From: Candidatus Cloacimonadota bacterium
Lineage (GTDB): Bacteria > Cloacimonadota > Cloacimonadia > JGIOTU-2 > B8-G9
Reading direction: 5' to 3'
Length of the DNA stretch: 5,338 nt
Assembly (NCBI GenBank): GCA_003647765.1
Contig: QMNM01000135.1
Location: 1 to 5,338, forward strand
The notes under the pieces are model-generated. The model searched no databases and had not been told where the DNA came from. It saw nothing but the letters and a program-made list of their open reading frames with translations. A program made the translations under genes and the position numbers. Each line of letters opens with the position of its first letter. The first letter of the stretch is position 1. Positions 1,253 through 5,338 of the stretch are shown piece after piece.

Positions 1253-1759
1253 ATGAAGGTGTTCTATTATAATCAGGACAATATAAACACAGATTTAATG
1301 TTTCCTGGTAAATACACTTATGAATCATCAGACCCAGAATTTATCAAACAGCATTTATTTGAAGATTTAGACCCTGAGTTTTCCAACAGAGTTAAGCCTG
1401 GCGACATAGTAATGGCTGGGAGAAATTTTGGCTGTGGTTCTTCTCGTGAGCAGCCAGCTGTTGGACTGAAATATTGTGGAGTACGGGCAATTATTGCAAA
1501 ATCATTTGCCAGAATTTTTTATCGTAGTTCTACTAATCAGGGCTTACTTTTGATTGAATCACCAAAGGCAGTTGAGGAATATAATCAAGGCGAAGAAGTC
1601 CAAATTGATGAAATAAAAGGTGAAATAAGCATTGGAAATAAGAAATATAAGTTTCCATCATTACCAAAGCAAATGCAAGATATTCTTGCTAATGGTGGAT
1701 TATTAAAATATATTAAGTCCAAATCTCATTATTTTACTTTTTCAGATAAGATGGAGTAG
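1253..1759 (+). CDS. leuD: 3-isopropylmalate dehydratase small subunit-like protein (LeuD/DmdB family)
   Basis: The small (swivel-domain) subunit of the aconitase superfamily pairs with an iron-sulphur large subunit. In leucine synthesis it isomerises 2-isopropylmalate to 3-isopropylmalate; relatives act on homoaconitate, citramalate or dimethylmalate. The 168-residue protein shows the family marks DNINTD (9-14), FPG (17-19), NFGCGSSRE (58-66, substrate-binding loop), KYCG (73-76) and AKSFARIFYR (82-91), then the closing GGLLKYIK (148-155). Length is normal apart from about 13 extra C-terminal residues. The substrate-selecting loop after FPG reads KYTYE (20-24) where archaeal-type enzymes have a YLRT-like motif, so the usual arginine is absent and the substrate is uncertain. 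AAGGAG at 1241-1246 sets the start. No large-subunit gene lies next to it, so the partner must be elsewhere. Its last 31 bases overlap the convergent gene. The family is certain; the exact reaction is not. Confidence 0.85.
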   Translation: MKVFYYNQDNINTDLMFPGKYTYESSDPEFIKQHLFEDLDPEFSNRVKPGDIVMAGRNFGCGSSREQPAVGLKYCGVRAIIAKSFARIFYRSSTNQGLLLIESPKAVEEYNQGEEVQIDEIKGEISIGNKKYKFPSLPKQMQDILANGGLLKYIKSKSHYFTFSDKME

Positions 1760-3087
1760 AATTCCTGCTCTAACCCATAAAATGCTTTCAATGCTTCTAT
1801 CTGTTTTTCACGCATTTCATCAGTCCATTGCTCTTTATCCTGTATAAAGTAAGCTCCTATATCTCCTTCATCTATCAAATTTGAAAGTATTTCTGATTCC
1901 CGCTTATAAATATTTACCATATTCTCAGCAATACTTTTATCAATACCCAATTCTTTGCTATGCCTTTCTATGAATTCGCTACCAATTCTCCTGGCTTCAG
2001 ATAAAGATTTAATAGTCCAGGTATTAGCGAGATTGACTTGACTAAATTTCTCATCATCAAGTTCAGCAAAGAATTTTTTATTATCTAGCTTCTCCATCCA
2101 GTATGTTATTGCAGATAATCCTAAATAGTAACCATCTGCTTTTTCAGTATCATAAAGGTCTTTAGCGAAATAGATAAGATTTTCATAAGCTTCAGTTAAT
2201 TCAGTATCTTTCTTTTTTCCATTGATTACACATATAACCCATGGGAATTTCTGAGCAATTTCATAATCTTCAGTCATATCAAAGTAAGTGCGGCAGAACA
2301 ATTCTTGTCCATGTTTTTGATAGCCAGTAATTATACCCCATTCAGGAATTTCAATTAAATCAAGAGCAATTACAGGCCAGCCATTATCAATAGATTTCAT
2401 TATTATTGTCTTGATTTCTTCCTTTTCTCGCATTCTTTCTTTAGATTCTTCATCTCTAATCTCGGGATTTTGAAGCAGATAATATTCATACTTATATCCC
2501 AACTTCTCTAAAAGTTGACCACCAACATCTTTTCCACAAGTAGCATCAGGAGAACTTGGGCACCAATCCTTATGAAATTGTGTCCGAAACGCATAGCCAG
2601 AAAGTCCAATCATATCTTCATAACTTATTCCTGAACCAAATTTTTCGTCAATCCTCCATACACATGCGATAAAGGAATTATCAATTCCCATATCAAAGCC
2701 AAGTTTGCCAATTCCTTTAATAATTTTGGCATTCTTATCAATTTTGTGAGGTTTAGCAATCGGCTGGAAATAAGCGCCTAATTCACCAGCAGGGACTTTA
2801 AGAGCAATCTTTACTTTATCTCTTTTTAAAAGTATCTTTACTTTTTCTTTTGTTACTTCCTGTTTTAGCTTCTGTAAATGTTTAATGGATTTTAATTTTT
2901 TACCATCATATTTAAGCAAAATATCGCCTAATTTTGCACCTTCTTTTTCCAAAGCAGACTCATCAGTAAATCCAATTATTTTCAATCCTAATATTTCTCT
3001 CTCTTGTTTAGCAATCTTTTCATTTGCCAATAATTGCATACTTAATAAAAACATCAGCATAGTGCAAATTGTTTTTATTACTTTCAT
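1729..3087 (-). CDS. Secreted PDZ-domain protein with a C39/BtrH-like domain
   Basis: Residues 1-21 form a signal peptide: lysines at 2 and 5, a hydrophobic core, and cleavage likely after LLA (19-21). There is no lipobox cysteine at the cleavage site, so export to the periplasm or outside is likely. Residues about 32-100 look like a PDZ domain (GLKIIGF..., KLGDILLKYDGKKL). Residues about 125-290 resemble papain-fold C39/BtrH N-terminal domains: DNSFIACVWRI (136-146), MIGLSGYAFR (159-168), DWCPSSPD (174-181), a WPVIALDL strand (237-244) and WGIITGY (250-256). A C39 peptidase would be expected to carry histidine near WGIITGY, but none is there, so proteolysis is doubtful. The rest (about 295-452) is helical, with YYLGLSAITYW (320-330) and a SLSEARR helix (361-367). 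AGGAGG (3095-3100) lies seven bases before the ATG. Substrate and role are unknown. The domain calls come from motif memory. Confidence 0.7.
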   Translation of the reverse strand: MKVIKTICTMLMFLLSMQLLANEKIAKQEREILGLKIIGFTDESALEKEGAKLGDILLKYDGKKLKSIKHLQKLKQEVTKEKVKILLKRDKVKIALKVPAGELGAYFQPIAKPHKIDKNAKIIKGIGKLGFDMGIDNSFIACVWRIDEKFGSGISYEDMIGLSGYAFRTQFHKDWCPSSPDATCGKDVGGQLLEKLGYKYEYYLLQNPEIRDEESKERMREKEEIKTIIMKSIDNGWPVIALDLIEIPEWGIITGYQKHGQELFCRTYFDMTEDYEIAQKFPWVICVINGKKKDTELTEAYENLIYFAKDLYDTEKADGYYLGLSAITYWMEKLDNKKFFAELDDEKFSQVNLANTWTIKSLSEARRIGSEFIERHSKELGIDKSIAENMVNIYKRESEILSNLIDEGDIGAYFIQDKEQWTDEMREKQIEALKAFYGLEQEFYSILSEKVK

Positions 3088-3269: not shown

Positions 3270-3905
3270 CTATGGAATAAGCATAAATGTTAATGACATT
3301 ACTATTCCAGAAAAAAGAGGGATTCTGATATTGTCATTTATTGGAATGTTTATAAATTCTGCTATAGCAGAAGAAACTGCTCCTGTAAAAATCATCACTA
3401 AATATAATTGGCCAATCTTTAAGTACAATTCACTAGGAGCTTTGCTGAAAATGAGATAATAACTTATAATACCAAACACGAAATTGCTTAAAAAACATGC
3501 TAATCCACCTTCAATAGTTTTGTTATATTTTACCACTTCTCTTTTCCCAAATGGAATTCCTACCAAAGAGGCAAAAGTATCCCCTATAGACAAGAATGAT
3601 AACGTCAAAAAAGTTATCTCTATCGGAAAAACCGCAATACAAATTACAGAAGAGGTAAGCAGATAAGATGCTCCTGTTAATTTGCTTATCTCTTTATTCC
3701 TTAACATCACACCAAAAATACGATAAAAAATCTTTCTTACAGTCGGATGTTCAATTCTGATTATATCTACTATAATTGAAATAAGTGCTATAGGCAATAA
3801 AATAATAAGTGCTATTTTCCTTGAATGGAGAAAAAAGTAATATATTATCGGAATTACTATAGAAAAAACATGAAATATTTTCCGATATAATTCACTCTTT
3901 ATCAT
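3270..3905 (-). CDS. Dolichol/phytol kinase family integral membrane protein
   Basis: This 211-residue protein is mostly hydrophobic, with about six membrane helices (for example 13-26, 31-47, 82-104, 137-153, 167-183 and 196-210). It has the signatures of the polyprenol kinase/phytol kinase (SEC59/VTE5) and CDP-diglyceride synthase-like superfamily: ELYRKIFH near the N-terminus (5-12), DIIR (47-50), LTGASY (76-81), GDTFASLVGIPFGK (108-121) and KTIEGG (129-134). Family members use a nucleotide triphosphate, often CTP, to phosphorylate a long isoprenoid alcohol at the membrane. The exact substrate here (phytol-like, geranylgeraniol, dolichol or a diacylglycerol) cannot be read from sequence. 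The ATG follows the reductase stop by three bases with no clear Shine-Dalgarno site, which suggests translational coupling. That neighbour, which acts on isoprenoid chains, favours an isoprenoid substrate. Confidence 0.75.
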   Translation of the reverse strand: MIKSELYRKIFHVFSIVIPIIYYFFLHSRKIALIILLPIALISIIVDIIRIEHPTVRKIFYRIFGVMLRNKEISKLTGASYLLTSSVICIAVFPIEITFLTLSFLSIGDTFASLVGIPFGKREVVKYNKTIEGGLACFLSNFVFGIISYYLIFSKAPSELYLKIGQLYLVMIFTGAVSSAIAEFINIPINDNIRIPLFSGIVMSLTFMLIP

Positions 3906-3908
3906 AAT

Positions 3909-5090
3909 TTATGTTAAATACGCTTTTACTAATTCGGCAAGTAATTTAGGATTTCCTTTGACAGCTATTTTAAATAACTGAAATAAATTTAGCTTATCCT
4001 CATCTACCTGATTAGCAATTCTGCAAATTTCACAGAATTGTTTATCTGTTAGTGTAAAGAAACTTTCTTTTAATTTATGTAATATCTTTAATCTATTACC
4101 TCTTATTTTCATCCATTGTTTATGGTATTTGTTGAGGAAGTTATTAGAGCAATTATTAGATTTTATAGATTGGGCTGCTATTTTTCCAGCAATCTGTCCA
4201 GATATTATTGCGCTTGCTATGCCTCCGCCTGTTACAGGATTTACTTGCCGTGCCGCATCACCTATTAACATTACATTATCACTAGTGATTTTTGGCAAAG
4301 TTCCAGAAGTTGGCACAGCACCAGCAATAAAGGCAATAATAGAAGCATTTGGAAATTTTTCTTGGACAAATTTATCTAAATAATATTTTGCATTATTATG
4401 TAATCTCTCAGCAGAAACACCTATACCTATATTTGCTATGTTTCTACCTTTTGGGAAAATCCAAGCATAACCACCTGGGGCTATTTCATTACCAAAATAA
4501 AAATGACAAGAATGGCTATCAACATCAATGTCAGTCAATACATATTGAGCTGAGGATTCAATATTGTTCAGTGAAAGCCTCGTATCTAATCCTGCCCAAC
4601 GTCCTACTCGTGATTCAATTCCATCAGCACCAATAACAATATTACATCTTACCTTGTATTTAACATTCATCAAAGTAAAGACAACTCCACAAATTTTGCC
4701 ATTTTCTTTAACTAGTCCGATAGCATTTGCTTTTGTTAATATTTTTGCTCCTTTTTTAGCTGCATATTCAGCAATAGCAGAGTCAAACAGTCGTCGTTCC
4801 AGCACTAGGCCTCTACCAATTGCTTTTTCGCTGATATAAGCTCTATTGCCATCTGGACTGTAAAGGCAAGTGCCATAGATCTCAGTAGCAATCCATCTTT
4901 TTTCAAGAGGGAAGAACTGGTCAATCGCAGATATTGCTACTCCTTCTGCACAACGCACTGGAATGCCAATCTCTCTATCTCGCTCTAATAATAGGACATC
5001 AATACCATTTTCTGCTACTGTCTTTGCACTCATGGTCCCAGCCGGACCACCACCAATTACAATAACATCATAAAACTCCTTAATTAGCAC
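3909..5090 (-). CDS. Geranylgeranyl reductase family FAD-dependent oxidoreductase
   Basis: The flavoenzyme family saturates double bonds of geranylgeranyl chains in archaeal lipids, chlorophyll precursors, quinones or polyprenols. Visible marks, numbered from the GTG start (393 residues): dinucleotide motif GGGPAG (13-18) with ribose-binding E36, family motif PVRCAEG (44-50), GADG (154-157), the substrate-cavity pattern YxWxFP-x8-GxG (Y208, W210, F212, P213, G222, G224) and FAD motif LIGDAARQVNPVTGGGI (275-291). There is no signal peptide; such enzymes act at the membrane surface. The open frame runs further upstream to an ATG at 5243, but that stretch lies inside the ferredoxin gene and codes a non-family leader. 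The GTG at 5090-5088, six bases after GGAGGAGG, is the likely start and overlaps the ferredoxin by 11 bases. The ferredoxin is the likely electron donor and the next gene a lipid kinase. Family certain; substrate unknown. Confidence 0.9.
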   Translation of the reverse strand: MLIKEFYDVIVIGGGPAGTMSAKTVAENGIDVLLLERDREIGIPVRCAEGVAISAIDQFFPLEKRWIATEIYGTCLYSPDGNRAYISEKAIGRGLVLERRLFDSAIAEYAAKKGAKILTKANAIGLVKENGKICGVVFTLMNVKYKVRCNIVIGADGIESRVGRWAGLDTRLSLNNIESSAQYVLTDIDVDSHSCHFYFGNEIAPGGYAWIFPKGRNIANIGIGVSAERLHNNAKYYLDKFVQEKFPNASIIAFIAGAVPTSGTLPKITSDNVMLIGDAARQVNPVTGGGIASAIISGQIAGKIAAQSIKSNNCSNNFLNKYHKQWMKIRGNRLKILHKLKESFFTLTDKQFCEICRIANQVDEDKLNLFQLFKIAVKGNPKLLAELVKAYLT

Positions 5091-5268
5091 TTGTTGCCTC
5101 CTCCGTCTCAATAGCAGAAACAGGACAAAGTATAGCACATTTTCCACAATCAATGCATTTAGATTGTTCAATTTTAGCATAGAATTCAGTATAAAAGATT
5201 GCGTCTGTTGGACACACAGCTGAACAACTACAACAAATATCACAAAGTTCTATATTTATCTTATACAT
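5080..5268 (-). CDS. 2[4Fe-4S] ferredoxin
   Basis: This small soluble electron carrier has 62 residues and two complete CxxCxxCxxxCP motifs: C9, C12, C15, C19-P20 and C38, C41, C44, C48-P49. The first motif carries an extra cysteine at 13. The internal duplication (CP.DAI and CPVSAI) is the classic bacterial ferredoxin form. GGAGGG at 5276-5281 sits seven bases before the ATG. The gene starts inside the last codons of the gene to its right, and its end overlaps the GTG start of the reductase, so all three should be co-translated. From its place it probably donates electrons to the reductase; a ferredoxin gene beside a geranylgeranyl reductase is known in methanogenic archaea (Methanosarcina). 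Confidence 0.92.
   Translation of the reverse strand: MYKINIELCDICCSCSAVCPTDAIFYTEFYAKIEQSKCIDCGKCAILCPVSAIETEEATSAN
5097..5104 (-). promoter_or_regulatory. Shine-Dalgarno site that sets the reductase start
   Basis: The minus strand reads GGAGGAGG here, six bases before the GTG at 5090-5088. It lies within the ferredoxin coding sequence. No ATG in the correct frame exists between it and the FAD motif; the ATGATG-like triplets near 5073 are out of frame. This supports a GTG start and an 11-base overlap between the genes. Confidence 0.75.
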
Positions 5269-5338
5269 TTATTTTCCCTCCAGACAGTAATTCATATTTG
5301 ACTGCCTTAGGAATAACAATTTTATCATATATCTTTCC
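5261..5338 (-). CDS. 3' end of an upstream operon gene, PIN-like tail (partial)
   Basis: The frame is open from the window edge through 25 codons to TAA (5263-5261), and its end overlaps the ferredoxin ATG by eight bases. The residues include KIYDKIVIPKAVKYELL. This looks like the region after the first aspartate of DUF3368-type PIN-domain proteins (a 'LY..IIIPEAVYEEL' pattern). In that family the chain would continue for another 100 or so residues, whereas here it stops. It may therefore be a truncated PIN gene, or an unrelated protein whose C-terminus resembles that segment by chance. That the frame is coding is fairly likely from the overlap and base composition; the identity is weak. Confidence 0.4.
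   Translation of the reverse strand, partial: GKIYDKIVIPKAVKYELLSGGKINV

Follow-up and report, generated by a model that had tools for sequence, protein, structure and literature searches.

The locus described here raises the question of what a row of genes for a small ferredoxin, a geranylgeranyl reductase (GGR) and a membrane-bound lipid kinase does in a bacterium, and whether the three proteins serve a single pathway. The row lies in what we refer to as the window, the whole 5,338-base contig of a metagenome-assembled genome (MAG) which is 89% complete and whose host belongs to the Cloacimonadota; the named relatives of the window are Candidatus Cloacimonadota, and a tree of 81 reductases placed the window inside a clade of 26 Cloacimonadota rows (support 100/99). 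The features of the row, in the direction of reading, are:

5264..5338, minus strand: 3' end of an upstream ORF (ending in GKIYDKIVIPKAVKYELLSGGKINV before the stop) which runs off the contig, overlaps the start of the ferredoxin gene and is without family
5080..5268, minus strand: 2[4Fe-4S] ferredoxin (Fd), ATG start, 62 aa; probably serves the reductase as its dedicated electron donor
3909..5090, minus strand: geranylgeranyl reductase (GGR), GTG start, 393 aa
3270..3905, minus strand: SEC59/DGK1/VTE5-type CTP-dependent lipid alcohol kinase, probably a polyprenol kinase, ATG start, 211 aa; membrane protein

The ferredoxin, GGR and kinase ORFs are all on the minus strand, with an overlap of 11 bases between the first two (5080–5090) and a gap of 3 bases between the GGR and the kinase (3906–3908), and these coordinates match exactly those given for the three-gene row in an earlier sequence-only reading of this DNA. 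A Shine-Dalgarno-like GGAGG is found upstream of both the ferredoxin and the GGR, and the ORF at 5264..5338 possibly shares a transcript with the three genes. The arrangement exceeds chance, because virtually all of the complete Cloacimonadota loci that we examined have the ferredoxin directly before the GGR or overlapping it, with the kinase directly behind the pair or within about 5 kb of it.

The remainder of the window includes a lone LeuD/homoaconitase-type small subunit gene at 1253–1759 on the plus strand (TIGR02087 over the cut-off) with no large subunit gene in the window, and 31 bases of its 3' end are shared with the 3' end of the convergent gene. The minus strand at 1729–3087 encodes a secreted-looking protein of 452 aa with a PDZ-like stretch and an otherwise unassigned sequence, which gave no Pfam match over the cut-off and no match in the defence library, and the plus strand at 180–1016 encodes a protein of 278 aa with no Pfam, NCBIfam or PADLOC matches. 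Between genes at 1085–1139 we also note a 14-base sequence (GGCGTAAAGCGTAG) in four near-perfect tandem copies, beside a CACAGAGACACACAGGACACAGAG-like sequence which looks like a dispersed short repeat.

The reductase is a member of the geranylgeranyl reductase family, having both the FAD Rossmann fold and the catalytic domain (GGR_cat, PF22578, E = 1.3e-29), and it scored 222 bits with the GG-reductase superfamily model TIGR02032 (cut-off 158.8). The YxWxFP-x8-GxG pattern ascribed to it earlier is seen as YAWIFP-x8-GIG, PGGYxWxFPK is strongly conserved among 23 homologues, and residues P205, G207, Y208, W210, F212, P213 and K214 are invariant in the reductase alignment (A1). Cys47, which is invariant in 23/23 aligned homologues and lies inside the part of the protein that aligns with the chains of the Sulfolobus enzyme, corresponds to the catalytic cysteine of the S. 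acidocaldarius GGR, the importance of which is stated in PMC10821996. Among solved structures the closest is 3oz2, a Thermoplasma digeranylgeranylglycerophospholipid reductase (E = 2.6e-78, with almost the whole length aligned), and the window GGR shares with this T. acidophilum protein the PVRCxEG and GGYxWxFPKG regions, although the latter is archaeal and the window GGR scored 269 bits against the Thermoplasmatales equivalog cut-off of 780. Identification as the menaquinone reductase MenJ (84 bits against an equivalog cut-off of 700) or as the chlorophyll reductase ChlP (88 bits against 505) was rejected.

The ferredoxin matches Fer4 (Pfam PF00037, E = 5e-12) and carries two complete CX2CX2CX3CP motifs. 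Its pairing with the GGR extends beyond the phylum to Ignavibacteria, KSB1, Marinimicrobia, a Zixibacterium and Archaeoglobales, and in three Cloacimonadota loci (L112, L115 and L117), which the reductase tree groups as a single clade, the two proteins are fused as one ORF of ~470–490 aa with both 4Fe-4S motifs intact. Open frames of 473–494 aa in G051, G124 and G157 suggest further fusions, and an AF2 model of a natural fusion was good for the GGR part and of low confidence for the ferredoxin domain (block pLDDT of 30–56). The conserved pairing and the fusions are our strongest evidence that the ferredoxin is the electron donor of the reductase, and we regard it as a probable dedicated donor. 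A likeness is found in Methanosarcina acetivorans, where the small ferredoxin MA_1485 adjoins the GGR MA_1484 and is needed for its activation (Isobe 2014, as cited in PMC8941075), and where MA_1484 saturates the ether-linked isoprenoid chains of lipids according to the same paper (PMC8941075). In contrast to the M. acetivorans pair, the one described here is bacterial, overlaps by 11 bases, is fused in some relatives, is followed by a lipid kinase, and is known from its sequence. The identities of all three proteins and the ferredoxin partnership put forward in the sequence-only reading are supported by motifs, profiles, homologues and conserved adjacency.

The third protein of the row gave no match of its own in Pfam, NCBIfam or the PDB sequences, though members of its homologue set (7/12) touched PF01148 with a best E of 2.3e-5, and a profile of the family touched the CDP-diglyceride synthase CdsA (4q2e, E = 1.8e-4). 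The AF2 model of the protein (pLDDT 90) matched the folds of CdsA (Z = 9.8, rmsd 6.7, 179 aligned) and CarS (Z = 7.7, rmsd 3.4, 104 aligned) best, where a Z below 13 is weak on its own for a helical membrane protein, and Foldseek returned no match at E = 0.001 or better, CdsA again being the best at E = 0.0097. The CTP motif D-x2-A-x3-G-x3-G-x8-K-T-x-E-G is present as DTFASLVGIPFGKREVVKYNKTIEG, and its D, A, G, G, K, E and G are invariant in 21 homologues. The motif described for dolichol kinases, DxxAxxxGxxxGx8KKTxEG, has a first K that is not kept here (N in the window), and it is common to CTP-using enzymes (PMC5853391), so that it does not separate kinases from CdsA.

All 25 Cloacimonadota homologues carry the CTP motif. 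An N-terminal RKxxH and a C-terminal [ND]DNxxIP (NDNxxIP in the window), which together we take to be hallmarks of the SEC59/DGK1/VTE5 lipid kinases, are both present in 25/25 Cloacimonadota homologues and in 20 from other genomes. The C-terminal CdsA signature HGGxxDRxD is absent from 25/25 homologues and present in the canonical CdsA which is encoded behind uppS elsewhere in the window's own genome, and we have rejected CdsA as the identity of the protein on both counts; a grouping with the CDP-diglyceride synthases, which the earlier reading had named as fatal to its proposal, was not seen by motif. The protein is best placed in the CTP-using membrane superfamily and, by motif, on the kinase side of it. 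It shares with the SEC59/DGK1/VTE5/FOLK kinases the CTP motif (apart from the first K), RKxxH, a DDN-type C-terminal motif and the nature of a membrane protein, but it is just 211 aa long and no curated family model matches it. A tblastn search for the kinase on plasmids gave no match.

We looked to the rest of the window's own genome for a substrate of the reductase. A GGGP synthase (GGGPS; PcrB) is encoded at C6:8387-9085 (TIGR01769, 216 bits, cut-off 161.55) and lies directly behind genes for a DGGGP-synthase-like (DGGGPS-like) UbiA protein and a polyprenyl synthase. The UbiA protein matched NF009521 at E = 5.7e-53 with 180 bits, which is under the cut-off of 296, and its best NCBIfam matches include GGGP geranylgeranyltransferases, all below their cut-offs. 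The genome holds GGGPS with a DGGGPS-like protein, the combination expected of an archaeal-type ether lipid pathway, and the search for archaeal-type lipid synthases proposed in the sequence-only reading proved positive, with all three genes clustered. As GGGPS, the DGGGPS-like UbiA and the polyprenyl synthase share a genome with the GGR, an archaeal-type ether lipid is the more probable substrate, rather than polyprenol or phytol. No match to CarS (PF01864) or to G1P dehydrogenase (PF13685) was found in this 89% complete genome; for PF13685 we use only this own-genome absence, because elsewhere the profile matches many genomes mostly over part of its length, and the proteins matched are probably other iron alcohol dehydrogenases.

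Two UbiA proteins were found in the genome, the DGGGPS-like one and one of the decaprenyl-phosphate phosphoribosyltransferase type. The second (on C139, locus L186) is followed by genes for a HAD phosphatase and a NAD epimerase, an order which resembles a polyprenyl-phosphoryl pentose donor pathway. Since it looks to be of the phosphoribosyltransferase type, no quinone, chlorophyll or tocopherol acceptor is seen in the genome (of which 11% is missing), and quinone and chlorophyll side chains are disfavoured as substrates. A quinone or chlorophyll tail reductase was rejected, given the equivalog scores far under the cut-offs and no quinone-type UbiA seen in the genome.

It should be noted that the route has been predicted before. 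According to the main text of Villanueva 2021 (PMC7852524), archaeal-type ether lipids were proposed for the Cloacimonadota in 2021 and GGRs related to euryarchaeal ones were noted in MAGs, a Cloacimonadota GGGPS was active in vitro, as was GGGPS together with DGGGPS in E. coli, and CarS and G1P dehydrogenase were likewise not found in the phylum. The pathway described there for Ca. Cloacimonetes and the one considered here have in common the phylum, a GGGPS beside a DGGGPS-like UbiA, the presence of a GGR, and the undetected CarS and G1P dehydrogenase. In the literature we came upon no study of the lipids of a Cloacimonadota member.

The distribution of the two enzymes within the phylum was compared in 124 Cloacimonadota genomes, of which 60 have both GGR and GGGPS, 5 have GGR only, 7 have GGGPS only and 52 have neither. 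The two are found together in 60 of the 72 genomes with either (Fisher p = 3e-21, a value which overstates independence because most of the listed genomes with neither belong to one family). The pattern rests largely on family f3, which lacks both, and because this family carries most of the joint absence, few independent events lie behind it. Three of the five GGR-only cases (G097, G115 and G118) have divergent relatives of the GGR without GGGP synthase, and these may act on a different type of substrate; of the seven GGGPS-only genomes three are less than 62% complete, and G026 has GGGPS without GGR. A broader scan led to 34 GGR-bearing genomes of other phyla and of archaea, with L167 also counted (its label is Cloacimonetes, but it branches apart), and 30 of these have GGGPS above the cut-off.

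In KSB1, Calditrichota and Zixibacteria loci (L142, L140, L158, L163, L164 and L134), the Fd–GGR pair mostly has on its flanks the genes of a prenyltransferase of the UbiA family and of a CDP-alcohol phosphatidyltransferase resembling PgsA. The KSB1 UbiA gave weak NCBIfam matches and, by phmmer, no match to the DGGGPS-like protein of the window's own genome; we do not count it as proof of a linkage to DGGGPS, as it is not clearly of this type and is suggestive only, and the UbiA beside the pair in these phyla could be another kind of prenyltransferase.

The kinase looks independent of the GGR. Family f3, which is without the class-type GGR and GGGPS, keeps the kinase and an ArnC-like glycosyltransferase in the gene order BamG-like, RecJ, kinase, ArnC-like glycosyltransferase, and in most GGR-bearing Cloacimonadota families it is precisely between RecJ and the kinase that the Fd–GGR pair is found. 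Among the loci scanned from the sister family of the window, the kinase and glycosyltransferase genes are together and several kb off, with thiamine genes between. The neighbours of the kinase in other phyla are TilS- and Rpe-like genes, and the GGR is not among them. The gene after the kinase in relatives encodes an ArnC/GtrB-like polyprenyl-phosphate glycosyltransferase (290/310 residues aligned, E = 7e-54), which is not adjacent to the kinase in the window. This persistence of the kinase where GGR and GGGPS are missing, and its other neighbours in other phyla, argue for a role separate from that of the GGR, and because it keeps company with the ArnC/GtrB-like glycosyltransferase we prefer a polyprenol kinase that would supply polyprenyl phosphate. 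Of the three-gene order which the sequence-only reading expected to be conserved in relatives, the Fd–GGR part stands, and the kinase, for all its proximity, is also kept without the GGR.

One alternative is that all three proteins together make a saturated, dolichol-like polyprenyl phosphate, with the GGR reducing the polyprenol, the kinase phosphorylating it, and the downstream glycosyltransferase of the relatives loading a sugar. Archaeal dolichols are reduced by GGR paralogues, and such a role would suit a kinase that adjoins the GGR in most GGR-bearing Cloacimonadota families and is followed in relatives by the glycosyltransferase gene. However, f3 retains kinase and glycosyltransferase together in the absence of the class-type GGR and GGGPS, the kinase is away from the GGR in other phyla, and the GGR tracks GGGPS, and we consider this alternative unlikely. 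It also seems improbable that the operon builds a eukaryote- or archaea-like carrier in which Fd–GGR would reduce polyprenol (perhaps besides ether lipids), the kinase would phosphorylate it and the ArnC/GtrB-like transferase would glycosylate it. The earlier proposal that an isoprenoid is reduced and phosphorylated to give a dolichol-like carrier is retained only in part, since the GGR tracks GGGPS and a polyprenol or phytol route is unneeded for explanation.

The trio might also form one pathway if the kinase-like protein were the missing CDP-archaeol synthase or a diether-glycerol (archaeol) kinase, as CarS was neither found in the own genome nor reported for the phylum in the main text of PMC7852524, the best fold matches are CdsA and CarS, and the protein sits directly behind the GGR. 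Against this, HGGxxDRxD is absent and the kinase-type RKxxH and [ND]DNxxIP are present, the same genome has a canonical cdsA behind uppS, bacterial CdsA can serve archaeal lipids (as that text states), and f3 keeps the kinase-like protein without GGGPS, which leaves this reading very improbable. The salvage of phytol raised earlier, or of geranylgeraniol, in which the kinase would phosphorylate scavenged prenols and the GGR would reduce geranylgeranyl to phytyl, fits the VTE5/FOLK/SEC59-type motifs of the kinase, enzymes of this type preferring CTP (PMC9782597), but is barely credible because the VTE6 family (PF01940), the second kinase of that pathway, was found in 0/59 genomes (controls matched in Synechococcus and three archaea), and because no chlorophyll or tocopherol prenyltransferase is seen, the two UbiA proteins being DGGGPS-like and phosphoribosyltransferase-like.

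We consider it quite likely that the Fd–GGR unit saturates an archaeal-type ether lipid precursor and that the kinase serves its own separate step. As we infer the mechanism, down to the degree of saturation, the clustered polyprenyl synthase, DGGGP synthase and GGGP synthase would make the ether lipid precursor in the same cell, the 2[4Fe-4S] ferredoxin would pass low-potential electrons to the FAD of the GGR, and the GGR would hydrogenate the isoprenoid chains of digeranylgeranylglyceryl phosphate or its CDP or phospholipid derivatives. The CTP-dependent lipid alcohol kinase (dolichol/phytol/farnesol kinase type) of the same operon probably phosphorylates a polyprenol, most likely for polyprenyl-phosphate-dependent glycosyl transfer.

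The route and the presence of a GGR in the phylum were already predicted in 2021, and the main text of PMC7852524, where the GGR is named, mentions no partner ferredoxin and no fused form; nor does it give the order recJ-[Fd-GGR]-kinase-GT2 or a family in which GGR and GGGPS are both missing. To judge from the literature, what seems to be new is the ferredoxin dedicated to the GGR, the natural fusion of the two, the tendency of GGR and GGGPS to be present or missing together, and the insertion of the pair into a recJ–kinase–glycosyltransferase block.

If this reading is true, Fd–GGR would be the saturation step of a bacterial archaeal-type ether lipid pathway with its own electron donor built in, and would provide a concrete gene pair, together with natural fusions, that could be combined with the GGGP and DGGGP synthases of Cloacimonadota already working in E. 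coli. It predicts saturated archaeal-like lipids in those Cloacimonadota families with GGR and GGGPS and none in the family lacking both, and in this way it bears on the question of the lipid divide.
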